This document shows, in pieces, positions 2,471 to 25,575 of a DNA stretch of 64,000 nucleotides; position 1 is the first letter of the stretch; each line of letters starts with the position of its first letter. The translations under genes were made by a program, and so were the position numbers. This stretch comes from Ascaris suum (lineage: Eukaryota; Nematoda; Chromadorea; Rhabditida; Ascarididae), in contig CM024168.1 in NCBI GenBank assembly GCA_013433145.1, positions 7,758,184 through 7,822,183 on the forward strand, given 5' to 3'. The notes beneath the pieces are model-generated. The model had not been told where the DNA came from. It worked only from the letters and a program-made list of their open reading frames with translations, and searched no databases.

Positions 2471-2554
2471 TATGTACAGTTAACGCAAGCTGGCTTTCAC
2501 CATCATTTCGACTGGCTTGAAGATCATCTCTTCGATTGGCACACTAATGTGTGA
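2471..2554 (+). CDS. Possible terminal exon of an unidentified plus-strand gene
   Basis: A TTTACTTTCAG acceptor is followed directly by 27 open codons and a TGA. The peptide is rich in aromatic and acidic residues (it includes AGFHHHFDWLEDHLFDWH). An AATAAA poly(A) signal follows at 2562-2567, eight bases after the stop. Acceptor, stop and poly(A) signal in the right order is what a last exon looks like. I do not recognise the protein and found no upstream exon, so chance remains a serious alternative. Confidence 0.3.
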   Translation, partial: YVQLTQAGFHHHFDWLEDHLFDWHTNV

Positions 2555-2567
2555 TGACATTAATAAA

Positions 2568-5421: not shown

Positions 5422-8400
5422 CTAAAATATAGTTGGGTCGTTACCTTGCTTATCATCAGCATCGAGAAACATTGAAGCGATATCGAACCTCGGCACTGAG
5501 CTCAACTGCACCAAGGAGTCGATAATTCTCAAGAAGTTTTCAGAAGTGAGTATCCTATGATAGCCTTCAACCAATACGCTGATCATATCCGTCTCAATCA
5601 CCTCACCGAGGATCGCTTTATAGTCAACGCTACGGATTGACTGAAACTGGTCACCAGTGTGCTTACAATAGGAAAAATTCCTCAGGAAATCCCCATGTTT
5701 GAGAAGCCTTACTTCTTTCGGCAGTTCCGAGGCTCATAGAACCCTTGTCTTAGAGAACGATTGAGGATCAAGTAGCTGCAACTTGCTGCGGAATTCTTGC
5801 GCATCAAGAATTCTCAAAGCTGTGGAATTCACCATTTTCGAGAACGTCCGACTTCAATTTGTGAATTCGCGCTGTTAGGGAATTCCCGGATGTGAGAGAG
5901 CCCAAAGCTCGATAGTACCCGATGTCATCCGATCTATTAAGGAAATTCCAAATCTCATGAGCCGGTGTGGCAAATCTAAATACTACTGTGGTAAATGCTA
6001 GTGGAACTTGTCCGAAAAAAACAATGATAATGAGAGAGTTCAGTTTTCTCTATTTTTTGTTTTCCAAAGAACTTCAAAGTGAACTCAGACGAAATTGGTC
6101 AAACGTTCCTTTTTTTTACATGTACTTTCTCAAGGCTGCTGAATGTCGGGATGCTCTAAACATCCTTCTTTCATTCTGTCATGAAATTGGGTTCAACGCT
6201 AGGGGCCAACAAAACATAAGTTCAATTGCGACGCAACCAACGGCAGAGGTCGGACGAAGCAGTCGGATGAGTGAATAACAGAAAAGGAGAAGAAAGAAAT
6301 GGACATGGACTGCATCACATATTATCGATGAGAAGTATGACTTTAGAAGCAGGAGCAAAGAGCCAAAGGAGGAGGCAATGCGCATTTGTATTCCTCTCAC
6401 TTGACCAATCCATGTTGTAAATTACCAAGAAATAACAAATACGCAAAGTAAGCCTTCCATTTCTCAACAACCGGACCGCACAAATTTATTACTAAATATA
6501 AGCCTTTATTGCCACTTTGATTGGGTTTGCAAAAGTGCGCCTTCGCGACATCGTGCCCGTCTGTTGTCTGTCTGTCCATCCAACTCGGGAACCAGTGAGA
6601 CTAGAGTTACAAAATTTGTGCATATAATGTGCATCACAAGGTGAACTCCTATCTCATGATTCATTCTAATCGATCAATTTCGAACGAAGTGATATCTAAA
6701 CCGGCTAAAAAACTGCGCCTATTACAAGCCCATAGAGCCTTCACCTTACGTTTCAGAAGATTCGCATATTTGGTTAGACCGTTTTCAGTATGAAGCATCA
6801 TTCTTCACATTTTGTTTCTTCGCTGATAACCAGTGAAACTGATTGGGTGGAGGAGAGCAGTGTTAAAGTGTGTATCTTCCCAGCCCCCTTGGCACGCTCC
6901 TCCACATCCTCTGTAATCTCAGTCGATACGAAAAAAAATTGACCACTGTAAAGTGCATGCAAATTTTCCTCACCTTTGAACATCTGTAACTTCTTTCGAA
7001 TCCGACGGGTCAACGTTAAATACGGTACAGAAGACCATCTTATGGTGTCCACTATATAAATCAAATCTCGTTTCTCTAGCTTCAGTGGCTCCTAAGTTGA
7101 AATTAACTGATAGGCAGACAGAGAGACAAATCATGCACAGGTACGAAAAGTCATCTTGTATGTTTTCGCAAAACAAATGTGGAAAAAAGCACGCGAAAAT
7201 TCATAGCTTATCACAACGTGACCTTTGCAATGGCGTGTCGACAGTTTTCCAAAAATAGGTGCGCCTTTATTAGATTTTGTTATCCACCCGCTGGAGCTAC
7301 TGAAAGCGCAATTCATGCGTCATCTCATGGATTAATTCTCATGGATTAAAGCGCTTTGAGCATCGGAGATGGACTCAATTATTCACCGCAATCAGCCCTT
7401 TTCAACAACTATATTGGTGAAAGGCAACTTCGGCTTGCGTGCCATATAAAGTTTGGATGCTTACTGAAAATGTTTTTTAACAGGCTCATTAAACAAATCG
7501 CTCCATGGAGCAAATATGTGCACGTTGCGTTGGTGTAAGTACACTATTTGTCGCCATATGGTGCCTCAGCTGGAATTTCCCGTGGTTTTTTCAAATATCA
7601 AAGCATTTTTTTCACCACTCGTGCGGTTTGAGCATAACAGCTCTGTGTTGCCAGGAATAAATATTTATAAAAGAGATAAGCGAAGCACAGCGCCACGATT
7701 TAACCTGCAGCCACAACGGTCCGACTCAGTGTGCATCGCAAATCAAGCAGTGAATCTCTTAAAACGTACAAGTATGTATTTCTCTTGCCAGCATAATGCT
7801 CGCTTGACCATACTGCACAATCAGCCAACCTGGCAGAAATAAACTAACCAAGAAATATTCAGCAAACATTTCGGGCAACGTCTTTAAAGTTGTATAATCG
7901 AAAAGGAACTGGTAGGAGGTACAAGGTGACGGAGGGATTGTGTTCGGCAGAATGCGCAGTGGCAGAGCCTGCAAGTATGAATCAGGTCAGATCTACACAC
8001 CTGATGAGCAGTTATTCGATCATTGACGTAGCAGCCGTTTAGTTTAAAATTTATTTCTTGTTTCTAATGTGTTCCTTTCACTGCTTCAGTGTACTCAAAC
8101 CTGGTGCAATTCATCGTATGCTTCCAGTATATACAGTTCATCATGTACCGCTGATGAGCAGATGCAAAGGAGGCCGAAAAACCTACCAGTGGCCTAAAAA
8201 TGAAATGTCAGAAATGAGGCACTCAGAAAACAATAGAAAAGCTTTCGTATCAGCGGCATTTATCCTGTACCTAATAAATGTAGTTCACCAACTTTGCCAG
8301 TTAAACGAAATGATAACCTGTGCATCGACTTTTGATGGTTTCTCCTTTTTAATAGAACCAACGACGCGAACTTCAGTTAATTCCTTGAGTGGAACCTCCG

Positions 8401-11400
8401 AGCGAATTGTATCGCACTTGTCCACGCACGCCAGTCTCACTTCCTTCGCATTCTTCTGTAGTACTTTTCTTTGATGCAACCGTGACACAAACTTAGAGTA
8501 TGACCAATCTATTAACAGCCGCTGGCACAAATGGTATCTTCAGCCTGTAACTACTTATGACTTTAAAGACACACATCTACTAACACTCATCAGCACGAAT
8601 GCCCTACGTCCCGAACAGAAGTCTATCATTCGAAATCACGCGGTAAACTAGGGTCCAAATTTGGAGTCCTGTCATTTGAGGTAGTACGAACAAAAGCATG
8701 CAAACCAAAACATCCAATACACTACTTTTATTAGTTTTGTCGAAAACGAAAAAGATATTCAAACAATTCAAAGTGTTTGGAAAATCATAAACGGCGGCTA
8801 AGTATTATCTCTCATAAAGCCGAGTGAACGGTAAAAAAGCCCCCACACTTCGTTATTCGTTATGCTCAAACGCTGAAAGCCTAGAACACTGAAGAAAACG
8901 ATGCGCAAAGCAGTTTCCAAAAGGAACACACCTTATCCTTAATGGCCTCTTTCAGTCTGAGTGTTTCTTTGTTTTTCGGGTCGATCTCAAGAATCTTCTC
9001 TAAATCGTCGAATGCCATTTCGTAGAGCTCTAAGTTAATTAAAGCCATCGCATGCCTGAAATTTAATAAGTTTTAATCATGCGTAACGCGTGCAGAAGTA
9101 GCATAATTTCATTTGGTCCATTTTACTTACATTTCTACAAGAAAATATTAAGATGTAGTCGACAACAGACGAAGAAGGGTGAAAATCACGATCTAACATG
9201 AACTACTAATACTGCATCATTGAAAACTTCCTACTGCGGTCCTACTCTACCACTACGTAAAAACATGCTGCATAAATAAGCTGAGTGAATTTATTCCGTA
9301 GACTCATGAAAAGAATTAACGTAACACATGAAAGCTTGCGCATGCGTCTCGCTTCGAACGACTTTTCCCAACAAATACTATACACGAAAGATTTCTGTTA
9401 AAAAAAGACAAAAAATACGAAGAAGTAAGTGAAGAAAAAGGTTGAGATGCCTTATGCACTCTTTCACTCATTAGTACAGAGGCCATCATAATCAAACAAG
9501 TGAGGAAATACGCCATAGGAACTACCCAACATAATATGAGCTTTCGTACGCGACTCACCTGAACAACGAATTTCATAAACTCCTGACAAGTAATTAAACG
9601 TGTATACGAACGCTTTCATGTCTTAATCGATCGAAAGCTTTTGTAGACCGATTACAGGGAATTTTTTTTTTCTTTTTTTGCAATTCAATCCGTGCAATAC
9701 GGAAATCCGATCCACTGCAAAATACATGCAAGTTCTGAATGACCTTCATCGGATTTTTTTGAAGCATATGGGTCAACCTGAATATTGGTGTATGATATCA
9801 TGCTGTGCCATACATATCCCAGAAATTTATTACCGCTACTTTCAATTGTATCCTTGTCTCAAACCGCACGATTTTCATATTGAATAGTTTCGGGCAGGGA
9901 AAAGCAACCTTTGCCTACCCATACAATTCAAAAGCAGACACACTTCTATTGCGGAATCAGTATTCTATCCAATACTTCGAGCTATTTCCAATGGTTATCG
10001 CAACATTCTTTCCTCTATGTAATAATTCAACGCTCACTGCTTCATTGCAAGATCACAGATGAACGACAAAGTGTCAGCATTATGTGTTCGCTCCTGCAGC
10101 AAGTTGAGATCATCACGCCAAAAACGCCACATGAAAGCAAAGCAAGGGGAAAGGCTTGGATGAATTTACGGCGGGAGAGGGGACGCGATAAAGCGAAGCA
10201 TTTTTCTTTGCCAAAACAAGTGCAGAACACAATAAAGAGGGCTAATATCAACGTTTTCATATTATAGACCATTGGGCGATAAAGCCGTCTTCAAACGGCG
10301 AACAAGATTTCATTTCACCGATTGCTTCCGAGTAAGAAGTCATGCCAGCAAGTTCCACATTAAAAAACACACAAAACTTTCAAAATGAAGCAAATATCCG
10401 AACACGCTAGAACAATTGCAAAAAATCAGAGAAAGGGCAAGCAGAAGCACGTTTTCCATGACAAAACGAAAATGTTAAAGAAGAAAACGGAGCAAACAAC
10501 TTTTCTTTTAAAAAAGCGTACAGCACGCAAATTGAACTCCTGAAGGAAAGACTGTAATCTAGTCTCTGATGACTATCGAATCACGGAAAATGAAATACAA
10601 ACCTATATCTGCCTTTGACAGAAGAAGGATCCATCGCGATAGCCTTCCGAGCATCCATTAGTGCTTTCTCGTTCCTGGAAACTTGCAAAAATTGAGAATT
10701 TTCCGAAACAAAGACTGCAAGGAAAAACAACATAACGACAGGAATTTCGGTAAAACCGGAACGAATACTGTAAGAAACAACGAAAAATTTAGCACAACAC
10801 GACGACTTCAAAAGCTCATAAAGAGTGATATATTCAATGCCCAACTAATTCCACAAAACAATACAGCACAGACAAATTTCGCAGGTAGCAAAGAGCTGTT
10901 TCCATCGACAACTTTCATTGCTCCATACGACCACGTTGAGGCGCGTTCATCCATATCGCAACCCACATGCTAAGATTTAGTTTCCTTGCATAAGGCAGGC
11001 TCTTGACGCTGCCATTAGAACATCAAATACGGAGAGGGTTACATTACGAAAAAAAACTTCGTTTCCATCATCGCTTCCCCCAAATCCAGCAACCTCAGGG
11101 CTATGCGACCATCATATCGCCATCAACTATGTTTTCGTACTACTTCCTTCGAGGCAAACGCTCCTTGCAATGCAAAGTAACACGGAATCCCGTTAAGTAA
11201 TGGTCAGGAAACTGATAGTGATAGCAGCGAGTGGTTTCGATCCACCGACCTCTGGGTTATGGGCCCAGCACGCTTCCGCTGCGCCACGCAACCTCTTGAT
11301 ATGTGTCAGTGTCTTCAAGAGAGGAGCATCAAACACTCCTTGCAATGCAAAATAACGGGAGATACGGTTCCGTAATGGTCAGGAAAGGGATAGTGATAGC

Positions 11401-14400
11401 AGCGAGTGGTTTCGATCCACCGACCTCTGGGTTATGGGCCCAGCACGCTTCCGCTGCGCCACGCTGCTTGGCTAATCTTTTGATATGTTCAGTGTCTTCT
11501 TCGAGAGGAGCATCAAACACTCCTTGCAATGCAAAATAACGGGAGATACGTTCCGTAATGGTCAGGAAAGGGATAGTGATAGCAGCGAGTGGTTTCGATC
11601 CACCGACCTCTGGGTTATGGGCCCAGCACGCTTCCGCTGCGCCACGCTGCTTGGCTAATCTTTGATATGTTCAGTGTCTTCTTCGAGACAGGAGCATCAA
11701 ACACTCCTTGCAATGCAAAATAACGGGAGATACGTTCCGTAATGGTCAGGAAAGGGATAGTGATAGCAGCGAGTGGTTTCGATCCACCGACCTCTGGGTT
11801 ATGGGCCCAGCACGCTTCCGCTGCGCCACGCTGCTTGGCTAATCTTTAACATGTTGGTCTCTTCGAGACAGGAGCACAAACATTCCTTGCAATGCAAAAT
11901 AACGGGAGATACCGTTCCGTAATGGTCAGGAAAGGGATAGTGATAGCAGCGAGTGGTTTCGATCCACCGACCTCTGGGTTATGGGCCCAGCACGCTTCCG
12001 CTGCGCCACGCTGCTTGGCTAATCTTTTGATATGTTCAGTGTCTTCTTCGAGGCAGGAGCATCAAACACTCCTTGCAATGCAAAATAACGGGAGATACGG
12101 TTCCGTAATGGTCAGGAAAGGGATAGTGATAGCAGCGAGTGGTTTCGATCCACCGACCTCTGGGTTATGGGCCCAGCACGCTTCCGCTGCGCCACGCTGC
12201 TTGGCTAATCTTTTGTATGTTCAGTGTCTTCTTCGAGGCAGGAGCATCAAACACTCCTTGCAATGCAAAATAACGGAAGATACGGTTCCGTAATGGTCAG
12301 GAAAGGGATAGTGATAGCAGCGAGTGGTTTCGATCCACCGACCTCTGGGTTATGGGCCCAGCACGCTTCCGCTGCGCCACGCTGCTTCTTAACCTCTTAA
12401 CATGTTCAGTGGTATCTTCGAGAGAGGAGCACGAACGACTCCTTGCAATGCAAAATAACGGGAGATACGGTTCCGTAATGGTCAGGAAAGGGATAGTGAT
12501 AGCAGCGAGTGGTTTCGATCCACCGACCTCTGGGTTATGGGCCCAGCACGCTTCCGCTGCGCCACGCTGCTTGGATAATCTTTGGTATGTTCAGTGTCTT
12601 CTTCGAGGCAGGAGCATCAAACACTCCTTGCAATGCAAAATAACGGGAGATACGGTTCCGTAATGGTCAGGAAAGGGATAGTGATAGCAGCGAGTGGTTT
12701 CGATCCACCGACCTCTGGGTTATGGGCCCAGCACGCTTCCGCTGCGCCACGCTGCTTGGCTAATTTTGATATGTTCAGTGTCTTCTTCGAGACAGGAGCA
12801 TCAAACACTCCTTGCAATGCAAAATAACGGGAGATACGGTTCCGTAATGGTCAGGAAAGGGATAGTGATAGCAGCGAGTGGTTTCGATCCACCGACCTCT
12901 GGGTTATGGGCCCAGCACGCTTCCGCTGCGCCACGCTGCTTGGCTAATCTTTGGATATGTTCAGTGTCTTCTTCGAGACAGGAGCATCAAACACTCCTTG
13001 CAATGCAAAATAACGGGAGATACGTTCCGTAATGGTCAGGAAAGGGATAGTGATAGCAGCGAGTGGTTTCGATCCACCGACCTCTGGGTTATGGGCCCAG
13101 CACGCTTCCGCTGCGCCACGCTGCTTCTCGAACCTTTGACATGCGTGGTATTCTTCAAGAGAGGAGCATCAAACACTCCTTGCAATGCAAAATAACGGGA
13201 GATACGTTCCGTAATGGTCAGGAAAGGGATAGTGATAGCAGCGAGTGGTTTCGATCCACCGACCTCTGGGTTATGGGCCCAGCACGCTTCCGCTGCGCCA
13301 CGCTGCTTGGCTAATCTTTAACATGCAGTGTCTTCTTCGAGGCAGGAGCATCAAACACTCCTTGCAATGCAAAATAACGGGAATACCGTTCCGTAATGGT
13401 CAGGAAAGGGATAGTGATAGCAGCGAGTGGTTTCGATCCACCGACCTCTGGGTTATGGGCCCAGCACGCTTCCGCTGCGCCACGCTGCTTGGCTAATCTT
13501 TGGATATGTTCAGTGTCTTCTTCGAGACAGGAGCATCAAACACTCCTTGCAATGCAAAATAACGGGAGATACGGTTCCGTAATGGTCAGGAAAGGGATAG
13601 TGATAGCAGCGAGTGGTTTCGATCCACCGACCTCTGGGTTATGGGCCCAGCACGCTTCCGCTGCGCCACGCTGCTTGGCTAATCTTTGGTATGTTCAGTG
13701 TCTTCTTCGAGACAGGAGCATCAAACACTCCTTGCAATGCAAAATAACACGGAATACGTTCCGTAATGGTCAGGAAAGGGATAGTGATAGCAGCGAGTGG
13801 TTTCGATCCACCGACCTCTGGGTTATGGGCCCAGCACGCTTCCGCTGCGCCACGCTGCTTGGCTAATCTTTGTATGTTCAGTGTCTTCTTCGAGAGGAGC
13901 ATCAAACACTCCTTGCAATGCAAAATAACGGGAGATACGGTTCCGTAATGGTCAGGAAAGGGATAGTGATAGCAGCGAGTGGTTTCGATCCACCGACCTC
14001 TGGGTTATGGGCCCAGCACGCTTCCGCTGCGCCACGCTGCTTGGCTAATCTTTGATATGTTCAGTGTCTTCTTCGAGACAGGAGCATCAAACACTCCTTG
14101 CAATGCAAAATAACGGGAGATACGTTCCGTAATGGTCAGGAAAGGGATAGTGATAGCAGCGAGTGGTTTCGATCCACCGACCTCTGGGTTATGGGCCCAG
14201 CACGCTTCCGCTGCGCCACGCTGCTTGGCTAATCTTTGGTATGTTCAGTGTCTCTTCGAGAGGAGCATCAAACACTCCTTGCAATGCAAAATAACGGAGA
14301 TACGGTTCCGTAATGGTCAGGAAAGGGATAGTGATAGCAGCGAGTGGTTTCGATCCACCGACCTCTGGGTTATGGGCCCAGCACGCTTCCGCTGCGCCAC

Positions 14401-17400
14401 GCTGCTTGGCTAATCTTTGGTATGTTCAGTGTCTTCTTCGAGACAGGAGCATCAAACACTCCTTGCAATGCAAAATAACGGGAGATACGTTCCGTAATGG
14501 TCAGGAAAGGGATAGTGATAGCAGCGAGTGGTTTCGATCCACCGACCTCTGGGTTATGGGCCCAGCACGCTTCCGCTGCGCCACGCTGCTTGGCTAATCT
14601 TTTGTATGTTCAGTGTCTTCTTCGAGGCAGGAGCATCAAACACTCCTTGCAATGCAAAATAACGGGAGATACCGTTCCGTAATGGTCAGGAAAGGGATAG
14701 TGATAGCAGCGAGTGGTTTCGATCCACCGACCTCTGGGTTATGGGCCAGCACGCTTCCGCTGCGCCACGCTGCTTGGCTAATCTTTGGTATGTTCAGTGT
14801 CTTCTTCGAGACAGGAGCATCAAACACTCCTTGCAATGCAAAATAACGGGAGATACGTTCCGTAATGGTCAGGAAAGGGATAGTGATAGCAGCGAGTGGT
14901 TTCGATCCACCGACCTCTGGGTTATGGGCCCAGCACGCTTCCGCTGCGCCACGCTGCTTGGCTAATCTTTTGATATGTTCAGTGTCTTCTTCGAGGCAGG
15001 AGCATCAAACACTCCTTGCAATGCAAAATAACGGGAGATACGTTCCGTAATGGTCAGGAAAGGGATAGTGATAGCAGCGAGTGGTTTCGATCCACCGACC
15101 TCTGGGTTATGGGCCCAGCACGCTTCCGCTGCGCCACGCTGCTTGGCTAATCTTTGATATGTTCAGTGTCTTCTTCGAGACAGGAGCATCAAACACTCCT
15201 TGCAATGCAAAATAACGGGAGATACGGTTCCGTAATGGTCAGGAAAGGGATAGTGATAGCAGCGAGTGGTTTCGATCCACCGACCTCTGGGTTATGGGCC
15301 CAGCACGCTTCCGCTGCGCCACGCTGCTTGGTAATCTTTGGTATGTTCAGTGTCTTCTTCGAGACAGGAGCATCAAACACTCCTTGCAATGCAAAATAAC
15401 GGGAGATACGGTTCCGTAATGGTCAGGAAAGGGATAGTGATAGCAGCGAGTGGTTTCGATCCACCGACCTCTGGGTTATGGGCCCAGCACGCTTCCGCTG
15501 CGCCACGCTGCTTGGCTAATCTTTTAATATGTTCAGTGTCTTCTTCGAGACAGGAGCATCAAACACTCCTTGCAATGCAAAATAACGGGAGATACGGTTC
15601 CGTAATGGTCAGGAAAGGGATAGTGATAGCAGCGAGTGGTTTCGATCCACCGACCTCTGGGTTATGGGCCCAGCACGCTTCCGCTGCGCCACGCTGCTTG
15701 GCTAATCTTTGGTATGTTCAGTGTCTTCTTCGAGGCAGGAGCATCAAACACTCCTTGCAATGCAAAATAACGGGAGATACGGTTCCGTAATGGTCAGGAA
15801 AGGGATAGTGATAGCAGCGAGTGGTTTCGATCCACCGACCTCTGGGTTATGGGCCCAGCACGCTTCCGCTGCGCCACGCTGCTTCTCGAACCTCTTAACA
15901 TGCGTGGTATCTTCAAGAGAGGAGCACGAACGATTCCTTGCAATGTAAAATAACGGGAGATGAAGTTCCGTAATGGTCAGGAAAGGGATAGTGATAGCAG
16001 CGAGTGGTTTCGATCCACCGACCTCTGGGTTATGGGCCCAGCACGCTTCCGCTGCGCCACGCTGCTTGGCTAATCTTTTGTATGTTCAGTGTCTTCTTCG
16101 AGGCAGGAGCATCAAACACTCCTTGCAATGCAAAATAACGGGAGATACGGTCCGTAATGGTCAGGAAAGGGATAGTGATAGCAGCGAGTGGTTTCGATCC
16201 ACCGACCTCTGGGTTATGGGCCCAGCACGCTTCCGCTGCGCCACGCTGCTTGGTAATCTTTTGATATGTTCAGTGTCTTCTTCGAGGCAGGAGCATCAAA
16301 CACTCCTTGCAATGCAAAATAACGGAGATACCGTTCCGTAATGGTCAGGAAAGGGATAGTGATAGCAGCGAGTGGTTTCGATCCACCGACCTCTGGGTTA
16401 TGGGCCCAGCACGCTTCCGCTGCGCCACGCTGCTTGGCTAATCTTTTGATATGTTCAGTGTCTTCTTCGAGGCAGGAGCATCAAACACTCCTTGCAATGC
16501 AAAATAACGGGAGATACGGTTCCGTAATGGTCAGGAAAGGGATAGTGATAGCAGCGAGTGGTTTCGATCCACCGACCTCTGGGTTATGGGCCCAGCACGC
16601 TTCCGCTGCGCCACGCTGCTTGGCTAATCTTTGGTATGTTCAGTGTCTTCTTCGAGGCAGGAGCATCAAACACTCCTTGCAATGCAAAATAACGGGAGAT
16701 ACGTTCCGTAATGGTCAGGAAAGGGATAGTGATAGCAGCGAGTGGTTTCGATCCACCGACCTCTGGGTTATGGGCCCAGCACGCTTCCGCTGCGCCACGC
16801 TGCTTCTAATCTTTTAACATGCAGTGTCTCTTCGAGACAGGGAGCATCAAACACTCCTTGCAATGCAAAATAACGGGAATACGTTCCGTAATGGTCAGGA
16901 AAGGGATAGTGATAGCAGCGAGTGGTTTCGATCCACCGACCTCTGGGTTATGGGCCCAGCACGCTTCCGCTGCGCCACGCTGCTTGGTTAATCTTTGGTA
17001 TGTTCAGTGTCTTCTTCGAGGCAGGAGCATCAAACACTCCTTGCAATGCAAAATAACGGGAGATACGTTCCGTAATGGTCAGGAAAGGGATAGTGATAGC
17101 AGCGAGTGGTTTCGATCCACCGACCTCTGGGTTATGGGCCCAGCACGCTTCCGCTGCGCCACGCTGCTTGGTTAATCTTTGGTATGTTCAGTGTCTTCTT
17201 CGAGGCAGGAGCATCAAACACTCCTTGCAATGCAAAATAACGGGAGATACGTTCCGTAATGGTCAGGAAAGGGATAGTGATAGCAGCGAGTGGTTTCGAT
17301 CCACCGACCTCTGGGTTATGGGCCCAGCACGCTTCCGCTGCGCCACGCTGCTTGGCTAATCTTTGGTATGTTCAGTGTCTTCTTCGAGGCAGGAGCATCA

Positions 17401-20400
17401 AACACTCCTTGCAATGCAAAATAACGGGAGATACCGTTCCGTAATGGTCAGGAAAGGGATAGTGATAGCAGCGAGTGGTTTCGATCCACCGACCTCTGGG
17501 TTATGGGCCCAGCACGCTTCCGCTGCGCCACGCTGCTTGGCTAATCTTTTGATATGTTCAGTGTCTTCTTCGAGGCAGGAGCATCAAACACTCCTTGCAA
17601 TGCAAAATAACGGGAGATACCGTTCCGTAATGGTCAGGAAAGGGATAGTGATAGCAGCGAGTGGTTTCGATCCACCGACCTCTGGGTTATGGGCCCAGCA
17701 CGCTTCCGCTGCGCCACGCTGCTTCTCTAATCTCTTTACATGCGTGGTATCTTCGAGACAGGAGCATCAAACATTCCTTGCAATGCAAAATAACGGGAAT
17801 ACCGTTCCGTAATGGTCAGGAAAGGGATAGTGATAGCAGCGAGTGGTTTCGATCCACCGACCTCTGGGTTATGGGCCCAGCACGCTTCCGCTGCGCCACG
17901 CTGCTTGGTAATCTTTGGTATGTTCAGTGTCTTCTTCGAGGCAGGAGCATCAAACACTCCTTGCAATGCAAAATAACGGGAGATACGTTCCGTAATGGTC
18001 AGGAAAGGGATAGTGATAGCAGCGAGTGGTTTCGATCCACCGACCTCTGGGTTATGGGCCCAGCACGCTTCCGCTGCGCCACGCTGCTTGGCTAATCTTT
18101 GGTATGTTCAGTGTCTTCTTCGAGGCAGGAGCACAAACACTCCTTGCAATGCAAAATAACGGGAGATAGTTCCGTAATGGTCAGGAAAGGGATAGTGATA
18201 GCAGCGAGTGGTTTCGATCCACCGACCTCTGGGTTATGGGCCCAGCACGCTTCCGCTGCGCCACGCTGCTTGGCTAATCTTTGGTATGTTCAGTGTCTTC
18301 TTCGAGGCAGGAGCATCAAACACTCCTTGCAATGCAAAATAACGGGAGATACCGTTCCGTAATGGTCAGGAAAGGGATAGTGATAGCAGCGAGTGGTTTC
18401 GATCCACCGACCTCTGGGTTATGGGCCCAGCACGCTTCCGCTGCGCCACGCTGCTTCTCGAATCTTTTTATGTTCGTGTCTTCTTCGAGAGAGGAGCATC
18501 AAACACTCCTTGCAATGCAAAATAACGGGAGATAAGTTCCGTAATGGTCAGGAAAGGGATAGTGATAGCAGCGAGTGGTTTCGATCCACCGACCTCTGGG
18601 TTATGGGCCCAGCACGCTTCCGCTGCGCCACGCTGCTTGGCTAATCTTTTGATATGTTCAGTGTCTTCTTCGAGGAGGAGCATCAAACACTCCTTGCAAT
18701 GCAAAATAACGGGAGATACGTTCCGTAATGGTCAGGAAAGGGATAGTGATAGCAGCGAGTGGTTTCGATCCACCGACCTCTGGGTTATGGGCCCAGCACG
18801 CTTCCGCTGCGCCACGCTGCTTGGTTAATCTTTTGATATGTTCAGTGTCTTCTTCGAGGCAGGAGCATCAAACACTCCTTGCAATGCAAAATAACGGGAG
18901 ATACGGTTCCGTAATGGTCAGGAAAGGGATAGTGATAGCAGCGAGTGGTTTCGATCCACCGACCTCTGGGTTATGGGCCCAGCACGCTTCCGCTGCGCCA
19001 CGCTGCTTGGTAATCTTTTGATATGTTCAGTGTCTTCTTCGAGGCAGGAGCATCAAACACTCCTTGCAATGCAAAATAACGGGAGAACGTTCCGTAATGG
19101 TCAGGAAAGGGATAGTGATAGCAGCGAGTGGTTTCGATCCACCGACCTCTGGGTTATGGGCCCAGCACGCTTCCGCTGCGCCACGCTGCTTGGCTAATCT
19201 TTGATATGTTCAGTGTCTTCTTCGAGACAGGAGCATCAAACACTCCTTGCAATGCAAAATAACGGGAGATACGTTCCGTAATGGTCAGGAAAGGGATAGT
19301 GATAGCAGCGAGTGGTTTCGATCCACCGACCTCTGGGTTATGGGCCAGCAGCACGCTTCCGCTGCGCCACGCTGCTTGGCTAATCTTTGGATATGTTCAG
19401 TGTCTTCTTCGAGGCAGGAGCATCAAACACTCCTTGCAATGCAAAATAACGGGAGATACGGTTCCGTAATGGTCAGGAAAGGGATAGTGATAGCAGCGAG
19501 TGGTTTCGATCCACCGACCTCTGGGTTATGGGCCCAGCACGCTTCCGCTGCGCCACGCTGCTTGGCTAATCTTTTGATATGTTCAGTGTCTTCTTCGAGA
19601 CAGGAGCATCAAACACTCCTTGCAATGCAAAATAACGGAGATACGTTCCGTAATGGTCAGGAAAGGGATAGTGATAGCAGCGAGTGGTTTCGATCCACCG
19701 ACCTCTGGGTTATGGGCCCAGCACGCTTCCGCTGCGCCACGCTGCTTGGCTAATCTTAACATGTTCAGTGTCTTCTTCGAGGCAGGAGCATCAAACACTC
19801 CTTGCAATGCAAAATAACGGGAGATACGTTCCGTAATGGTCAGGAAAGGGATAGTGATAGCAGCGAGTGGTTTCGATCCACCGACCTCTGGGTTATGGGC
19901 CCAGCACGCTTCCGCTGCGCCACGCTGCTTGGATAATCTTTTGATATGTTCAGTGTCTTCTTCGAGGCAGGAGCATCAAACACTCCTTGCAATGCAAAAT
20001 AACGGGAGATACCGTTCCGTAATGGTCAGGAAAGGGATAGTGATAGCAGCGAGTGGTTTCGATCCACCGACCTCTGGGTTATGGGCCCAGCACGCTTCCG
20101 CTGCGCCACGCTGCTTGGCTAATCTTTTGTATGTTCAGTGTCTTCTTCGAGGCAGGAGCATCAAACACTCCTTGCAATGCAAAATAACGGGAGATACGGT
20201 TCCGTAATGGTCAGGAAAGGGATAGTGATAGCAGCGAGTGGTTTCGATCCACCGACCTCTGGGTTATGGGCCCAGCACGCTTCCGCTGCGCCACGCTGCT
20301 TGGAAATCTTTTGATATGCAGTGTCTTCTTCGAGGCAGGAGCATCAAACACTCCTTGCAATGCAAAATAACGGGAGATACGTTCCGTAATGGTCAGGAAA

Positions 20401-23400
20401 GGGATAGTGATAGCAGCGAGTGGTTTCGATCCACCGACCTCTGGGTTATGGGCCCAGCACGCTTCCGCTGCGCCACGCTGCTTGGCTAATCTTTGGTATG
20501 TTCAGTGTCTTCTTCGAGGCAGGAGCATCAAACACTCCTTGCAATGCAAAATAACGGGAGATACGGTTCCGTAATGGTCAGGAAAGGGATAGTGATAGCA
20601 GCGAGTGGTTTCGATCCACCGACCTCTGGGTTATGGGCCCAGCACGCTTCCGCTGCGCCACGCTGCTTGGTTAATCTTTGGTATGTTCAGTGTCTTCTTC
20701 GAGGCAGGAGCATCAAACACTCCTTGCAATGCAAAATAACGGAGATACGGTTCCGTAATGGTCAGGAAAGGATAGTGATAGCAGCGAGTGGTTTCGATCC
20801 ACCGACCTCTGGGTTATGGGCCCAGCACGCTTCCGCTGCGCCACGCTGCTTCTCGAACCTCTTAACATGCGTGGTATCTTCGAGACAGGAGCACAAACAT
20901 TCCTTGCAATGCAAAATAACGGGAGATGACGTTCCGTAATGGTCAGGAAAGGGATAGTGATAGCAGCGAGTGGTTTCGATCCACCGACCTCTGGGTTATG
21001 GGCCCAGCACGCTTCCGCTGCGCCACGCTGCTTGGCTAATCTTTGGTATGTTCAGTGTCTTCTTCGAGGCAGGAGCATCAAACACTCCTTGCAATGCAAA
21101 ATAACGGGAGATACGGTTCCGTAATGGTCAGGAAAGGGATAGTGATAGCAGCGAGTGGTTTCGATCCACCGACCTCTGGGTTATGGGCCCAGCACGCTTC
21201 CGCTGCGCCACGCTGCTTCTCGAATCTTAACTTGCAGGGTCTTCGAGCAGGAGCACGAACCGACCTCTTGCAATGCAAAATAACAGGGAGATAATGGTCA
21301 GGAAAGGGATAGTGATAGCAGCGAGTGGTTTCGATCCACCGACCTCTGGGTTATGGGCCCAGCACGCTTCCGCTGCGCCACGCTGCTTGGCTAATCTTTG
21401 GTATGTTCAGTGTCTTCTTCGAGGCAGGAGCATCAAACACTCCTTGCAATGCAAAATAACGGGAGATACGGTTCCGTAATGGTCAGGAAAGGGATAGTGA
21501 TAGCAGCGAGTGGTTTCGATCCACCGACCTCTGGGTTATGGGCCCAGCACGCTTCCGCTGCGCCACGCTGCTTGGCTAATCTTTTGATATGTTCAGTGTC
21601 TTCTTCGAGCAGGAGCATCAAACACTCCTTGCAATGCAAAATAACGGGAGATACGGTTCCGTAATGGTCAGGAAAGGGATAGTGATAGCAGCGAGTGGTT
21701 TCGATCCACCGACCTCTGGGTTATGGGCCCAGCACGCTTCCGCTGCGCCACGCTGCTTGGCTAATCTTTGGTATGTTCAGTGTCTTCTTCGAGGCAGGAG
21801 CATCAAACACTCCTTGCAATGCAAAATAACGGGAGATACGTTCCGTAATGGTCAGGAAAGGGATAGTGATAGCAGCGAGTGGTTTCGATCCACCGACCTC
21901 TGGGTTATGGGCCCAGCACGCTTCCGCTGCGCCACGCTGCTTGGCTAATCTTTGGTATGTTCAGTGTCTTCTTCGAGGCAGGAGCATCAAACACTCCTTG
22001 CAATGCAAAATAACGGGAGATGACGTTCCGTAATGGTCAGGAAAGGGATAGTGATAGCAGCGAGTGGTTTCGATCCACCGACCTCTGGGTTATGGGCCCA
22101 GCACGCTTCCGCTGCGCCACGCTGCTTCTCGAACTCTTAACATGCGTGGTATCTTCGAGCAGGAGCACAAACGATTCCTTGCAATGTAAAATAACACGGA
22201 ATGAAGTTCGTAATGGTCAGGAAAGGGATAGTGATAGCAGCGAGTGGTTTCGATCCACCGACCTCTGGGTTATGGGCCCAGCACGCTTCCGCTGCGCCAC
22301 GCTGCTTGGCTAATCTTTTGTATGTTCAGTGTCTTCTTCGAGACAGGAGCATCAAACACTCCTTGCAATGCAAAATAACGGGAGATACGGTTCCGTAATG
22401 GTCAGGAAAGGGATAGTGATAGCAGCGAGTGGTTTCGATCCACCGACCTCTGGGTTATGGGCCCAGCACGCTTCCGCTGCGCCACGCTGCTTGGCTAATC
22501 TTTGGTATGTTCAGTGTCTTCTTCGAGGCAGGAGCATCAAACACTCCTTGCAATGCAAAATAACGGGAGATACGGTTCCGTAATGGTCAGGAAAGGGATA
22601 GTGATAGCAGCGAGTGGTTTCGATCCACCGACCTCTGGGTTATGGGCCCAGCACGCTTCCGCTGCGCCACGCTGCTTCTCTAATCTTTGACATGTTCAGT
22701 GTCTTCTTCGAGACAGGAGCATCAACACTCCTTGCAATGCAAAATAACGGAGATACGGTTCCGTAATGGTCAGGAAAGGGATAGTGATAGCAGCGAGTGG
22801 TTTCGATCCACCGACCTCTGGGTTATGGGCCCAGCACGCTTCCGCTGCGCCACGCTGCTTGGCTAATCTTTGTATGTTCAGTGTCTTCTTCGAGGCAGGA
22901 GCATCAAACACTCCTTGCAATGCAAAATAACGGGAGATACGGTTCCGTAATGGTCAGGAAAGGGATAGTGATAGCAGCGAGTGGTTTCGATCCACCGACC
23001 TCTGGGTTATGGGCCCAGCACGCTTCCGCTGCGCCACGCTGCTTGGCTAATCTTTGGTATGTTCAGTGTCTTCTTCGAGGCAGGAGCATCAAACACTCCT
23101 TGCAATGCAAAATAACGGGAGATACGGTTCCGTAATGGTCAGGAAAGGGATAGTGATAGCAGCGAGTGGTTTCGATCCACCGACCTCTGGGTTATGGGCC
23201 CAGCACGCTTCCGCTGCGCCACGCTGCTTGGCTAATCTTTGGTATGTTCAGTGTCTTCTTCGAGACAGGAGCATCAAACACTCCTTGCAATGCAAAATAA
23301 CGGGAGATACGGTTCCGTAATGGTCAGGAAAGGGATAGTGATAGCAGCGAGTGGTTTCGATCCACCGACCTCTGGGTTATGGGCCCAGCACGCTTCCGCT

Positions 23401-25575
23401 GCGCCACGCTGCTTGGCTAATCTTTGATATGTTCAGTGTCTTCTTCGAGGCAGGAGCATCAAACACTCCTTGCAATGCAAAATAACGGGAGATACGTTCC
23501 GTAATGGTCAGGAAAGGGATAGTGATAGCAGCGAGTGGTTTCGATCCACCGACCTCTGGGTTATGGGCCCAGCACGCTTCCGCTGCGCCACGCTGCTTGG
23601 CTAATCTTTTGATATGTTCAGTGTCTTCTTCGAGACAGGAGCATCAAACACTCCTTGCAATGCAAAATAACGGGAGATACGGTTCCGTAATGGTCAGGAA
23701 AGGGATAGTGATAGCAGCGAGTGGTTTCGATCCACCGACCTCTGGGTTATGGGCCCAGCACGCTTCCGCTGCGCCACGCTGCTTGGCTAATCTTTTGTTA
23801 TGTTCAGTGTCTTCTTCGAGGCAGGAGCATCAAACACTCCTTGCAATGCAAAATAACGGGAGATACGGTTCCGTAATGGTCAGGAAAGGGATAGTGATAG
23901 CAGCGAGTGGTTTCGATCCACCGACCTCTGGGTTATGGGCCCAGCACGCTTCCGCTGCGCCACGCTGCTTGGCTAATCTTTTGATATGTTCAGTGTCTTC
24001 TTCGAGACAGGAGCATCAAACACTCTTTGCAATGCAAAATAACGGGGATACGGTTCCGTAATGGTCAGGAAAGGGATAGTGATAGCAGCGAGTGGTTTCG
24101 ATCCACCGACCTCTGGGTTATGGGCCCAGCACGCTTCCGCTGCGCCACGCTGCTTGGCTAATCTTTTGATATGTTCAGTGTCTTCTTCGAGACAGGAGCA
24201 TCAAACACTCTTGCAATGCAAAATAACGGGAGATACGGTTCCGTAATGGTCAGGAAAGGGATAGTGATAGCAGCGAGTGGTTTCGATCCACCGACCTCTG
24301 GGTTATGGGCCCAGCACGCTTCCGCTGCGCCACGCTGCTTGGTTAATCTTTGGATATGTTCAGTGTCTTCTTCGAGGCAGGAGCATCAAACACTCCTTGC
24401 AATGCAAAATAACGGGAGATACGTTCCGTAATGGTCAGGAAAGGGATAGTGATAGCAGCGAGTGGTTTCGATCCACCGACCTCTGGGTTATGGGCCCAGC
24501 ACGCTTCCGCTGCGCCACGCTGCTTGGTTAATCTTTGGTATGTTCAGTGTCTTCTTCGAGGCAGGAGCATCAAACACTCCTTGCAATGCAAAATAACGGG
24601 AGATACGGTTCCGTAATGGTCAGGAAAGGGATAGTGATAGCAGCGAGTGGTTTCGATCCACCGACCTCTGGGTTATGGGCCCAGCACGCTTCCGCTGCGC
24701 CACGCTGCTTGGCTAATCTTTTGATATGTTCAGTGTCTTCTTCGAGACAGGAGCATCAAACACTCCTTGCAATGCAAAATAACGGGAGATACCGTTCCGT
24801 AATGGTCAGGAAAGGGATAGTGATAGCAGCGAGTGGTTTCGATCCACCGACCTCTGGGTTATGGGCCCAGCACGCTTCCGCTGCGCCACGCTGCTTGGCT
24901 AATCTTTTGATATGTTCAGTGTCTTCTTCGAGACAGGAGCATCAAACACTCCTTGCAATGCAAAATAACGGGAGATACGGTTCCGTAATGGTCAGGAAAG
25001 GGATAGTGATAGCAGCGAGTGGTTTCGATCCACCGACCTCTGGGTTATGGGCCCAGCACGTTTCCGCTGCGCCACGCTGCTTGGTAATCTTTGATATGTT
25101 CAGTGTCTTCTTCGAGACAGGAGCATCAAACACTCCTTGCAATGCAAAATAACGGGAGATACGGTTCCGTAATGGTCAGGAAAGGGATAGTGATAGCAGC
25201 GAGTGGTTTCGATCCACCGACCTCTGGGTTATGGGCCCTGCACGCTTCGGCCGCGGCACGCTATATGATGATGTAAAAGTGCCGAGAAAAGCTTTTCAGC
25301 ATTACACGGTCTCAGATTCATGACGCTGATGTGGGTGACAGTTCGGAACAGGGAGGGATGATGTGGTTCGGAGACTTAATAACAGTGAGAAAGGAGAAAC
25401 AAGAAACTTACTGTTTTGTGCAGAGATAAGCCTGTGCTCTATTCGAGAGTGCTTCGGCTGTGAGGCGACATTGTAATGACTTGGTGTACGCGTTTACTGC
25501 GTTGTGGTAGCGCTTTGCACGGAAATGGTCATTGCCTTCCAAACGCAAGGCATCCGCTTCATCGCTCGTTCCCAT
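5422..25575 (-). CDS. RPAP3-like TPR co-chaperone, six exons
   Basis: Exons, in transcription order: 25412-25575, 10603-10674, 8932-9055, 8318-8455, 7849-7968, 5422-5640. They join in phase to 278 aa. The ATG at 25575 has an in-frame TGA directly before it, so it is the start unless a splice site intervenes. Residues 5-110 form a TPR domain. The carboxylate-clamp positions that grip the Hsp90/Hsp70 C-terminus are kept: R11 (usually Lys), N15, N45, K75, R79. Residues about 167-278 resemble the RPAP3 C-terminal domain: a Pro-rich lead, then a helical block ending DIASMFLD, at the same spacing as human RPAP3. The human protein has two TPR domains and about 665 residues, so this is a minimal version. 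Known relatives work in the R2TP complex, which assembles RNA polymerase II, snoRNPs and PIKK kinases with Hsp90. SPAG1 shares this layout and is the main alternative. Intron 1 (14.7 kb) contains the tRNA array. There are no frameshifts or internal stops. Confidence 0.88.
11222..11293 (-). pseudogene. tRNA-iMet unit 1, degenerate edge copy
   Basis: The 3' part matches, but the first four bases of the tRNA (AGCA) are replaced by GGTT, apparently by a deletion joining the tRNA to the spacer. The acceptor stem would have two G-U pairs and one mismatch. Its trailer is also the most diverged in the array. Confidence 0.8.
11397..11468 (-). tRNA. tRNA-iMet(CAT), unit 2
   Basis: First full-consensus copy. 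A box at 11451-11461. The first T4 run on the coding strand lies at 11349-11352, 44 nt past the 3' end. Confidence 0.96.
11580..11651 (-). tRNA. tRNA-iMet(CAT), unit 3
   Basis: Full consensus. Confidence 0.96.
11764..11835 (-). tRNA. tRNA-iMet(CAT), unit 4
   Basis: Full consensus; its 5' flank is a variant spacer (taacatgttggtctcttc). Confidence 0.96.
11944..12015 (-). tRNA. tRNA-iMet(CAT), unit 5
   Basis: Full consensus. Confidence 0.96.
12130..12201 (-). tRNA. tRNA-iMet(CAT), unit 6
   Basis: Full consensus. Confidence 0.96.
12315..12386 (-). tRNA. tRNA-iMet(CAT), unit 7
   Basis: Full consensus; 5' flank of the variant class (cttaacctcttaacatg). Confidence 0.96.
12500..12571 (-). tRNA. 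tRNA-iMet(CAT), unit 8
   Basis: Full consensus. Confidence 0.96.
12685..12756 (-). tRNA. tRNA-iMet(CAT), unit 9
   Basis: Full consensus. Confidence 0.96.
12869..12940 (-). tRNA. tRNA-iMet(CAT), unit 10
   Basis: Full consensus. Confidence 0.96.
13054..13125 (-). tRNA. tRNA-iMet(CAT), unit 11
   Basis: Full consensus; variant 5' flank (tctcgaacctttgacatgcg). Confidence 0.96.
13236..13307 (-). tRNA. tRNA-iMet(CAT), unit 12
   Basis: Full consensus; shortened 5' flank (taacatgcagtgtc). Confidence 0.96.
13418..13489 (-). tRNA. tRNA-iMet(CAT), unit 13
   Basis: Full consensus. Confidence 0.96.
13604..13675 (-). tRNA. tRNA-iMet(CAT), unit 14
   Basis: Full consensus. Confidence 0.96.
13788..13859 (-). 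tRNA. tRNA-iMet(CAT), unit 15
   Basis: Full consensus; trailer has the cacggaat variant also seen at units 1 and 61. Confidence 0.96.
13970..14041 (-). tRNA. tRNA-iMet(CAT), unit 16
   Basis: Full consensus. Confidence 0.96.
14154..14225 (-). tRNA. tRNA-iMet(CAT), unit 17
   Basis: Full consensus. Confidence 0.96.
14335..14406 (-). tRNA. tRNA-iMet(CAT), unit 18
   Basis: Full consensus. Confidence 0.96.
14519..14590 (-). tRNA. tRNA-iMet(CAT), unit 19
   Basis: Full consensus. Confidence 0.96.
14704..14774 (-). pseudogene. tRNA-iMet unit 20, one-base deletion in the anticodon arm
   Basis: 71 nt. One base is missing from the GGGCCC run that spans the anticodon stem and the start of the loop. 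The copy loses either one of the three initiator G-C pairs or one loop base, so it is probably not functional. Confidence 0.75.
14887..14958 (-). tRNA. tRNA-iMet(CAT), unit 21
   Basis: Full consensus. Confidence 0.96.
15072..15143 (-). tRNA. tRNA-iMet(CAT), unit 22
   Basis: Full consensus. Confidence 0.96.
15257..15328 (-). tRNA. tRNA-iMet(CAT), unit 23
   Basis: Full consensus. Confidence 0.96.
15441..15512 (-). tRNA. tRNA-iMet(CAT), unit 24
   Basis: Full consensus. Confidence 0.96.
15627..15698 (-). tRNA. tRNA-iMet(CAT), unit 25
   Basis: Full consensus. Confidence 0.96.
15812..15883 (-). tRNA. tRNA-iMet(CAT), unit 26
   Basis: Full consensus; its right-hand spacer is a strongly variant type nearly repeated after unit 60. 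Confidence 0.96.
15995..16066 (-). tRNA. tRNA-iMet(CAT), unit 27
   Basis: Full consensus; trailer carries the tgtaaaata and tgaagttc variants. Confidence 0.96.
16179..16250 (-). tRNA. tRNA-iMet(CAT), unit 28
   Basis: Full consensus. Confidence 0.96.
16363..16434 (-). tRNA. tRNA-iMet(CAT), unit 29
   Basis: Full consensus. Confidence 0.96.
16549..16620 (-). tRNA. tRNA-iMet(CAT), unit 30
   Basis: Full consensus. Confidence 0.96.
16733..16804 (-). tRNA. tRNA-iMet(CAT), unit 31
   Basis: Full consensus; variant 5' flank (tctaatcttttaacatgcag). Confidence 0.96.
16913..16984 (-). tRNA. tRNA-iMet(CAT), unit 32
   Basis: Full consensus. Confidence 0.96.
17097..17168 (-). tRNA. tRNA-iMet(CAT), unit 33
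   Basis: Full consensus. Confidence 0.96.
17281..17352 (-). tRNA. tRNA-iMet(CAT), unit 34
   Basis: Full consensus. Confidence 0.96.
17466..17537 (-). tRNA. tRNA-iMet(CAT), unit 35
   Basis: Full consensus. Confidence 0.96.
17652..17723 (-). tRNA. tRNA-iMet(CAT), unit 36
   Basis: Full consensus; variant 5' flank (tctctaatctctttacatgc). Confidence 0.96.
17834..17905 (-). tRNA. tRNA-iMet(CAT), unit 37
   Basis: Full consensus. Confidence 0.96.
18017..18088 (-). tRNA. tRNA-iMet(CAT), unit 38
   Basis: Full consensus. Confidence 0.96.
18199..18270 (-). tRNA. tRNA-iMet(CAT), unit 39
   Basis: Full consensus. Confidence 0.96.
18384..18455 (-). tRNA. tRNA-iMet(CAT), unit 40
   Basis: Full consensus; variant 5' flank (tctcgaatctttttatgttc). 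Confidence 0.96.
18566..18637 (-). tRNA. tRNA-iMet(CAT), unit 41
   Basis: Full consensus. Confidence 0.96.
18750..18821 (-). tRNA. tRNA-iMet(CAT), unit 42
   Basis: Full consensus. Confidence 0.96.
18936..19007 (-). tRNA. tRNA-iMet(CAT), unit 43
   Basis: Full consensus. Confidence 0.96.
19119..19190 (-). tRNA. tRNA-iMet(CAT), unit 44
   Basis: Full consensus. Confidence 0.96.
19303..19376 (-). pseudogene. tRNA-iMet unit 45, anticodon arm rearranged
   Basis: 74 nt. The anticodon stem region reads gggccagcagcacg on the plus strand instead of gggcccagcacg: one C lost and three bases gained. The 5' side of the anticodon stem is disrupted. Confidence 0.75.
19491..19562 (-). tRNA. tRNA-iMet(CAT), unit 46
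   Basis: Full consensus. Confidence 0.96.
19675..19746 (-). tRNA. tRNA-iMet(CAT), unit 47
   Basis: Full consensus. Confidence 0.96.
19858..19929 (-). tRNA. tRNA-iMet(CAT), unit 48
   Basis: Full consensus. Confidence 0.96.
20044..20115 (-). tRNA. tRNA-iMet(CAT), unit 49
   Basis: Full consensus. Confidence 0.96.
20229..20300 (-). tRNA. tRNA-iMet(CAT), unit 50
   Basis: Full consensus; slightly shortened 5' flank. Confidence 0.96.
20411..20482 (-). tRNA. tRNA-iMet(CAT), unit 51
   Basis: Full consensus. Confidence 0.96.
20596..20667 (-). tRNA. tRNA-iMet(CAT), unit 52
   Basis: Full consensus. Confidence 0.96.
20779..20850 (-). tRNA. tRNA-iMet(CAT), unit 53
   Basis: Full consensus; variant 5' flank (tctcgaacctcttaacatgc). 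Confidence 0.96.
20961..21032 (-). tRNA. tRNA-iMet(CAT), unit 54
   Basis: Full consensus. Confidence 0.96.
21146..21217 (-). tRNA. tRNA-iMet(CAT), unit 55
   Basis: Full consensus; the most diverged internal spacer in the array lies to its right. Confidence 0.96.
21316..21387 (-). tRNA. tRNA-iMet(CAT), unit 56
   Basis: Full consensus; its trailer lacks the cgttccg block, making this the shortest unit spacing (170 bp). Confidence 0.96.
21501..21572 (-). tRNA. tRNA-iMet(CAT), unit 57
   Basis: Full consensus. Confidence 0.96.
21686..21757 (-). tRNA. tRNA-iMet(CAT), unit 58
   Basis: Full consensus. Confidence 0.96.
21870..21941 (-). tRNA. tRNA-iMet(CAT), unit 59
   Basis: Full consensus. Confidence 0.96.
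22055..22126 (-). tRNA. tRNA-iMet(CAT), unit 60
   Basis: Full consensus; right-hand spacer resembles that of unit 26. Confidence 0.96.
22235..22306 (-). tRNA. tRNA-iMet(CAT), unit 61
   Basis: Full consensus; trailer carries the tgtaaaata and tgaagttc variants shared with unit 27. Confidence 0.96.
22420..22491 (-). tRNA. tRNA-iMet(CAT), unit 62
   Basis: Full consensus. Confidence 0.96.
22605..22676 (-). tRNA. tRNA-iMet(CAT), unit 63
   Basis: Full consensus; variant 5' flank (tctctaatctttgacatg). Confidence 0.96.
22788..22859 (-). tRNA. tRNA-iMet(CAT), unit 64
   Basis: Full consensus. Confidence 0.96.
22972..23043 (-). tRNA. tRNA-iMet(CAT), unit 65
   Basis: Full consensus. Confidence 0.96.
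23157..23228 (-). tRNA. tRNA-iMet(CAT), unit 66
   Basis: Full consensus. Confidence 0.96.
23342..23413 (-). tRNA. tRNA-iMet(CAT), unit 67
   Basis: Full consensus. Confidence 0.96.
23526..23597 (-). tRNA. tRNA-iMet(CAT), unit 68
   Basis: Full consensus. Confidence 0.96.
23712..23783 (-). tRNA. tRNA-iMet(CAT), unit 69
   Basis: Full consensus. Confidence 0.96.
23898..23969 (-). tRNA. tRNA-iMet(CAT), unit 70
   Basis: Full consensus. Confidence 0.96.
24083..24154 (-). tRNA. tRNA-iMet(CAT), unit 71
   Basis: Full consensus. Confidence 0.96.
24268..24339 (-). tRNA. tRNA-iMet(CAT), unit 72
   Basis: Full consensus. Confidence 0.96.
24453..24524 (-). tRNA. tRNA-iMet(CAT), unit 73
   Basis: Full consensus. 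Confidence 0.96.
24638..24709 (-). tRNA. tRNA-iMet(CAT), unit 74
   Basis: Full consensus. Confidence 0.96.
24824..24895 (-). tRNA. tRNA-iMet(CAT), unit 75
   Basis: Full consensus. Confidence 0.96.
25010..25081 (-). tRNA. tRNA-iMet(CAT), unit 76, D-stem substitution
   Basis: One substitution against the consensus: G22 becomes A, turning the C13-G22 pair of the D stem into a C-A mismatch. It may still fold, but it is the first step in the decay seen at this edge of the array. Confidence 0.8.
25194..25265 (-). pseudogene. tRNA-iMet unit 77, degenerate edge copy
   Basis: The T arm and anticodon loop match. The 5' half is altered: one anticodon-stem base, three D-arm bases and the first bases of the acceptor stem are changed. 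It sits closest to exon 1 of the host gene. Confidence 0.8.

Follow-up and report, generated by a model that had tools for sequence, protein, structure and literature searches.

A tandem array of 77 initiator tRNA-Met genes in Ascaris suum, one of several single-identity tRNA gene arrays in the genome and likely a dosage array

The stretch of Ascaris suum DNA analysed here (the window; 64,000 nucleotides, lying on the 18.8-Mb contig C1) belongs to an assembly of 277.8 Mb in 97 contigs and contains a head-to-tail array of initiator tRNA-Met genes in which each unit consists of a 72-bp gene and a spacer of about 113 bp. The array genes lie on the minus strand, a point on which the original prediction was silent, and on the same strand are the protein-coding exons recognised on either side of the array by a six-frame Pfam scan of window positions 1-10001 and 25300-35300. 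The features of the locus, in window coordinates, are listed below.

5449..5691, minus strand: exon encoding the RPAP3 C-terminal domain (Pfam PF13877, E 4.9e-7), on the opposite side of the array from the Sec10 gene
11155..25265, minus strand: initiator tRNA-Met tandem array, 77 units of about 185 bp (TRF, ARAGORN, unit dissection)
11222..11293, minus strand: unit 77, an edge copy with 3 substitutions in the 5' strand of the acceptor (Infernal, 47.2 bits)
11349..11396, minus strand: example of a predicted Pol III trailer (48 nt, with T4 at its end), belonging to the gene at 11397-11468; its nucleotides 1-24 are nearly invariant across units
11397..11468, minus strand: example of the consensus gene, initiator tRNA-Met(CAT), present in 72 identical copies (Infernal, 55.8 bits, model positions 1-71 complete)
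14704..14774, minus strand: unit 58, lacking one G of the anticodon arm, anticodon read as 'cata' (44.4 bits)
19303..19376, minus strand: unit 33, 74 nt, its anticodon arm lengthened by a 2-nt insertion; neither ARAGORN nor Infernal calls it
25010..25081, minus strand: unit 2, with one D-arm substitution (Infernal, 51.0 bits)
25194..25265, minus strand: unit 1, at the array edge, with 7 substitutions in the 5' half of the gene, missed by ARAGORN and Infernal alike
33818..34033, minus strand: exon of an exocyst Sec10 gene next to the array, another exon match lying at 35139-35291 (Pfam PF07393, in two frames, E 3.7e-24 and 2.8e-6)

The original prediction had claimed 77 tandem units of about 184 bp, 72 of them with the full 72-nt consensus, and both counts are borne out. 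TRF reports a single array at window 11155-25262, with a period of 185, 76.7 copies, and no short repeat within it. When units were delimited by an exact anchor, namely the last 22 nt of the gene, 77 followed one another in unbroken succession, and 72 of these carried the exact consensus gene. In the window, ARAGORN called 75 tRNA genes, all on the minus strand (74 as tRNA-Met(CAT) and one as 'tRNA-???'), and Infernal with Rfam likewise returned 75 matches above the gathering score, 72 of them at an identical 55.8 bits and the others at 51.0, 47.2, and 44.4 bits. Chance is excluded as the origin of such an array. An A1-T72 pair, a CAT anticodon, a GGG/CCC anticodon stem, and an ATCGAAA T-loop are marks of the eukaryotic initiator tRNA-Met, and the array gene carries all four, as had been stated, within a complete cloverleaf (exact in 72 of the 77 units). 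With 72 exact copies and 75 Infernal matches above the cut-off, the genes look like genuine initiators rather than pseudo-tRNAs. The five defective genes are not evenly placed, three of them (units 1, 2, and 77) being terminal (hypergeometric P 1.4e-4, the end units having been chosen post hoc); array ends are a usual site of decay where exchange keeps arrays uniform.

The gene and its spacer differ sharply in how much variation they carry. Across an alignment of 76 units, each comprising a spacer and the gene following it (the gene of edge unit 1 being left out), the gene shows 7 deviations (4 substitutions and 3 indel positions; 0.13% per site, with 5 of 72 sites variable), whereas the spacer shows 445 (302 substitutions and 143 indel positions; 5.2% per site, with 64 of 113 sites variable), a difference in variable sites with a Fisher P of ~1e-12. 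Adding the gene of unit 1 with its 7 substitutions raises the gene value to about 0.25%, still roughly twenty-fold below the spacer. Pairwise, spacers differ by 8.5% on average and by 42% at most. The contrast between 0.13% and 5.2% indicates that the array genes are constrained. Within the spacer, positions 1-24 of the trailer and the region of the T4 run are nearly invariant, whereas variation is found at trailer positions 25-40 and over most of the ~50 bp that precede the gene. The T4 run, a putative terminator, starts +36 to +45 after the gene in 76 of 77 units, and the single unit without one within 112 nt downstream is apparently unit 77, judging by its spacer. A and B boxes, as defined for Pol III type 2 genes, are internal to the near-invariant gene and the T4 run stands downstream, which together make up the layout of that gene type. 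A further block, GCATTGCAAGGA, at window 11337-11348 and at the equivalent place in other units, is nearly invariant over ~12 nt past the T4 run, outside the predicted transcript. A structured trailer RNA was also considered and is rejected on predicted folds, in which gene plus trailer (120 nt) is no more stable than shuffled sequences (z -0.17) and the 113-nt spacer is less stable than the shuffle average (z +1.03).

Variation among the spacers also bears on how the array turns over. As many as 63 of the 76 spacers are distinct, similarity between units shows no decay with distance along the array (Mantel r -0.01, P 0.55), and of 91 pairs of common variable columns, 66 show all four gametic combinations. 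The absence of distance decay, taken with the four-gamete combinations, suggests that variants are mixed by long-range exchange or conversion within the array. The original prediction had offered, among other possibilities, a tRNA-derived satellite spreading by unequal exchange; its exchange component fits these patterns, and its spreading component does not. A 37-mer from the trailer, searched through the whole genome with up to 3 mismatches, gave 40 matches, every one of them within the initiator array (the other 37 array units go unmatched because their spacers have indels or more mismatches). With this trailer pattern found nowhere else and a strongly constrained gene, only 0.13% deviant, a satellite or a tRNA-derived SINE is rejected for the initiator locus.

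Outside the array, initiator genes are few. A 28-mer covering the initiator anticodon arm, allowed up to 3 mismatches, has 77 matches genome-wide, 75 in the array (units 33 and 58 being missed owing to their indels) and two dispersed, at 6.369 Mb on contig C1 and 4.956 Mb on contig C18. Over their 72 nt these two copies match each other perfectly, and their flanks are unrelated. Both carry T at base 16, where all 77 array units have C, and conversion by the dispersed genes is accordingly not supported as the cause of uniformity among the array genes. In the dispersed genes a T5 or T4 run begins close by, 5 and 8 nt past the gene. The cluster had been called exceptional, and 75 of the 77 anticodon-arm matches in the genome do indeed fall within it; it is, nevertheless, no lone exception, since at least six other tRNA identities, namely Lys, Arg, Cys, Gly, His, and Leu, are in tandem arrays (identities beyond the window were checked on sampled units), and some of these arrays are larger.

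These other arrays came to light through two kinds of search. A genome search for the tRNA family, in which 63 of 14,580 candidates were scored, located at least 29 tandem tRNA-Lys(TTT) genes at C1:3.395 Mb, at least 24 tRNA genes at C22:4.188 Mb, and at least 5 genes of a second Lys array at C1:3.588 Mb. ARAGORN read five Lys loci as Lys(TTT), two of nine copies in the second Lys array being called '???', and it identified 13 Arg(TCT) genes in 2.6 kb of the array on C22. Additionally, pairs of B boxes 152-212 bp apart number 945 genome-wide compared with 17 for the reversed pattern, and 406 compared with 0 when the boxes are restricted to GGTTCGAV; these patterns count box pairs rather than tRNA genes, and their places are those of the first 100 listed per search. 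This survey spans spacings of 152-212 bp, and the Lys arrays are the longer-unit arrays covered. Applied to six of the listed B-box clusters, ARAGORN recognised tRNA genes in five, namely Cys(GCA), Gly(TCC), His(GTG), Leu(TAG), and a degenerate Ala cluster, and no tRNA in the sixth, at C5:9.249 Mb. In every array stretch read, there is one tRNA gene per unit.

Gene-specific patterns give a more direct view of three of these identities. For tRNA-His(GTG) there are 160 matches genome-wide, and among the first 100 listed, 98 lie in one array on C3 and 2 elsewhere; this array, which occupies C3:10367477-10387099 and extends beyond, is larger than the initiator array. tRNA-Leu has 139 matches genome-wide; of the first 100 listed, 99 belong to a single array on C5 and one, a TAG match, lies elsewhere on the same contig. 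The Leu array (C5:11464763-11485482) interleaves anticodons in otherwise identical 48-nt stretches, 31 with TAG and 68 with AAG among the first 100 listed, and tandem Leu(AAG) genes also occur ~40 kb past it, at C5:11525001-11525450. The 45 genome-wide matches for tRNA-Cys comprise 36 in an array on C1, 6 in a small array on C24, and 3 dispersed. The 5'-most copies of the two Cys arrays (C24:6675203-6676245 and C1:1444347-1451398) share the same two-mismatch variant, which suggests that one array may have been copied from the edge of the other. Not every tRNA is arrayed, given that tRNA-Thr(TGT) has two copies genome-wide, both dispersed and neither in an array.

The contrast between invariant gene and variable spacer recurs in other arrays. 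In the Lys array at C1:3.395 Mb, none of 73 gene sites varies over 28 units, compared with 60 of 280 spacer columns, and in the Arg array 10 units have 0 deviations in the gene and 57 in the spacer. Some arrays are less clean, with defective copies in both the second Lys array and the Ala cluster: the gene columns of 8 units of the former contain 10 substitutions and 10 indel positions, and one of three copies in the latter is miscalled. In the second Lys array (C1:3587950-3590523), the gene copies depart from consensus mostly by short deletions, reflecting either real decay or uncorrected sequencing errors. The acceptor of Lys genes reads AGAAGGC in the array and AGAGGGC in the dispersed copies read. 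Termination signals are less uniform. The T4 run starts at +147 to +181 in the Lys array and, for 12 genes of the Arg array, at +13 to +15; where a single spacer per array was sampled, the start is +3 for Cys, +15 for Ala, +17 for Leu, +34 for His, and +75 for Gly, and in the five dispersed genes examined (two initiator and three Lys) a T4 or T5 run starts at +5 to +8. A distal T4 run therefore marks some arrays and not all. A regulatory motif shared by the sampled spacers of eight arrays was also sought and is rejected, the best 9-letter word occurring in 5 of the 8, when 29 of 30 shuffles reach 4 and one reaches 5.

Taken together, we consider it likely, at a probability of roughly 0.6, that the 77-unit initiator array, a single locus among at least six other arrayed identities, is an rDNA-like dosage array in which each unit is transcribed separately by Pol III. 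RNA polymerase III would be directed by the A and B boxes inside each gene, and the transcript would extend ~45 nt beyond the gene to the T4 run, the trailer then being trimmed. Unequal exchange and gene conversion would alter copy number and mix variants, and purifying selection would maintain the intact gene because a large share of the initiator tRNA in the cell would come from the array. A separate founder gene seems to lie behind each array, as suggested by the lack of any motif clearly beyond chance in the sampled spacers of eight arrays and by the base that separates the dispersed initiator and Lys copies examined from their arrayed counterparts. The chief doubt about the dosage reading concerns the need for such copy numbers. 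With tRNA-Thr(TGT) represented by two dispersed genes, high copy number is no general requirement, and the authors of a study of the tRNA arrays of Entamoeba argue against a supply role on like grounds (PMC2652664). Furthermore, the distal T4 run of the initiator and Lys arrays, set against the near T4 or T5 run of the dispersed copies, implies that the arrays may be read through or poorly transcribed. The defective copies of the second Lys array and the Ala cluster also count against the dosage reading, as does the tandem tRNA cluster of Arabidopsis, which is silent in most tissues (PMC12308677).

One alternative is that the array is mostly a silent reserve, held in repressed chromatin and active only in some tissue or stage, while the dispersed copies do the everyday work. 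There is a precedent in the Arabidopsis Ser/Tyr (SYY) tRNA cluster, which is described as heterochromatic, silent in most tissues, and productive in root cap cells (PMC12308677). The distal T4 run of the initiator array beside dispersed genes that keep theirs close, along with a Thr-TGT tRNA that manages on two genes, would also agree with a reserve. Against it, 72 of 77 genes are intact and identical beside diverged spacers, suggesting selection on many copies, and the scanned flanks carry conserved protein exons, those of Sec10 and of the RPAP3 domain; we regard this alternative as unlikely.

A role as a chromatin boundary or architectural array, in which the chromosome would be partitioned by a multitude of B boxes bound by TFIIIC, with the tRNA itself of minor importance, appears distinctly improbable. 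The B-box region is intact in all 77 units, although the exact 22-nt 3' anchor by which the units were found itself contains most of the B box, and a boundary function has been implicated for a tandem repeat of tRNA genes in human (PMC4041453). Constraint, however, spans the whole gene and part of the trailer rather than being limited to the two promoter boxes, and across the sampled spacers of the eight arrays no shared motif stands clearly above chance. A neutral tRNA-derived satellite, amplified recently and without function, whose genes are intact only through the youth of the array, is slightly more improbable still: tandem structure, degenerate edge units, and a second Lys array with indels in most of its 9 complete copies read are what such a satellite could leave behind, but spacers have diverged by up to 42% while the genes have not, and the trailer pattern is confined to the initiator locus. 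Inflation of copy number by an assembly artefact, for which the mostly indel differences among the second Lys array genes could be cited as consensus errors, is very improbable, since 63 distinct spacers among 76 without similarity structure along the array speak against a block multiplied by the assembler, and the array lies inside an 18.8-Mb contig with protein-coding exons on both sides.

Arrays of tRNA genes as such are already known from Entamoeba, Arabidopsis, fish and Nematostella, and human. In Entamoeba, near-uniform tandem units carry many tRNA identities, some tRNAs are low-copy and dispersed, and the function is unresolved (PMC2652664). The likeness to the present genome is close in that head-to-tail units are found here for several identities (initiator Met, Lys, Arg, Cys, Gly, His, and Leu). 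There are nonetheless clear distinctions: the host here is an animal; a unit in Entamoeba may contain as many as 5 tRNA genes, in some cases together with 5S RNA, whereas the sampled arrays here have one gene per unit; E. histolytica and E. dispar have short tandem repeats between genes, whereas TRF finds none in the initiator array; and almost all tRNA genes of E. histolytica are arrayed, whereas here at least Thr-TGT is not (Entamoeba features from PMC2652664). As Thr-TGT, among the identities surveyed, is dispersed only, the array system is not classed as Entamoeba-type.

Other known cases are more distant. The Arabidopsis SYY cluster likewise places tandem tRNA genes at one locus beside dispersed genes, but it combines two identities, Ser and Tyr, whereas each unit here has one (PMC12308677). 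The human 1q23.3 repeat, a tandem repeat bearing tRNA genes in an animal, has 9-43 units per allele, and its 7.3-kb units, of which tRNA genes make up less than 6% and which include a CTCF site, differ from the 185-bp units here, 39% of which is gene (PMC4041453). Teleost fish and Nematostella have clusters of at least 50 tRNA genes in which most neighbouring pairs are parallel, yet neighbours in zebrafish and Nematostella are mostly heterogeneous, in contrast to the single-identity arrays here, the initiator included (PMC2888827); the word 'initiator' has no occurrence in the main text of that paper. The total for C. elegans is given as 609 tRNA genes (PMC4999229). Among the papers listed by our literature searches, none described arrayed tRNA genes in a nematode or an array consisting solely of initiator genes.

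A broader proposition, which we advance tentatively and place somewhat short of an even chance, is that the bulk of several cytoplasmic tRNA genes, the initiator included, has moved into rDNA-like single-identity arrays whose units (roughly 185-325 bp) number from tens up to around a hundred or more, each array derived from one founder and with its dose set by unequal exchange; the dispersed genes would then be ancestral remnants, and the whole would represent an independent animal invention of the Entamoeba-type array organisation. Gene copy number is a frequent proxy for tRNA supply, and 77 initiator units and 160 His matches beside two Thr-TGT genes offer a direct test of that proxy. The test is feasible because arrayed and dispersed genes differ by one base (C16 or T16 in the initiator; AGAAGGC or AGAGGGC in Lys) and can thus be separated by tRNA sequencing. 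The genome is also a naturally occurring model in which to examine how repeated RNA genes of very small size are held uniform by selection and exchange.

Another small RNA gene, the spliced leader, was searched for in the same assembly. The 22-mer of SL1, the nematode spliced leader, has 251 exact matches in the genome, with 0 for the control, which by itself makes a nematode host very likely. SL2 has 0 matches genome-wide at up to 2 mismatches, a result that speaks against a nematode of Caenorhabditis type. On contig C7 (C7:3652283-3681526), five SL1 matches lie ~7.3 kb apart, suggesting a 7.3-kb tandem repeat that includes the spliced leader.
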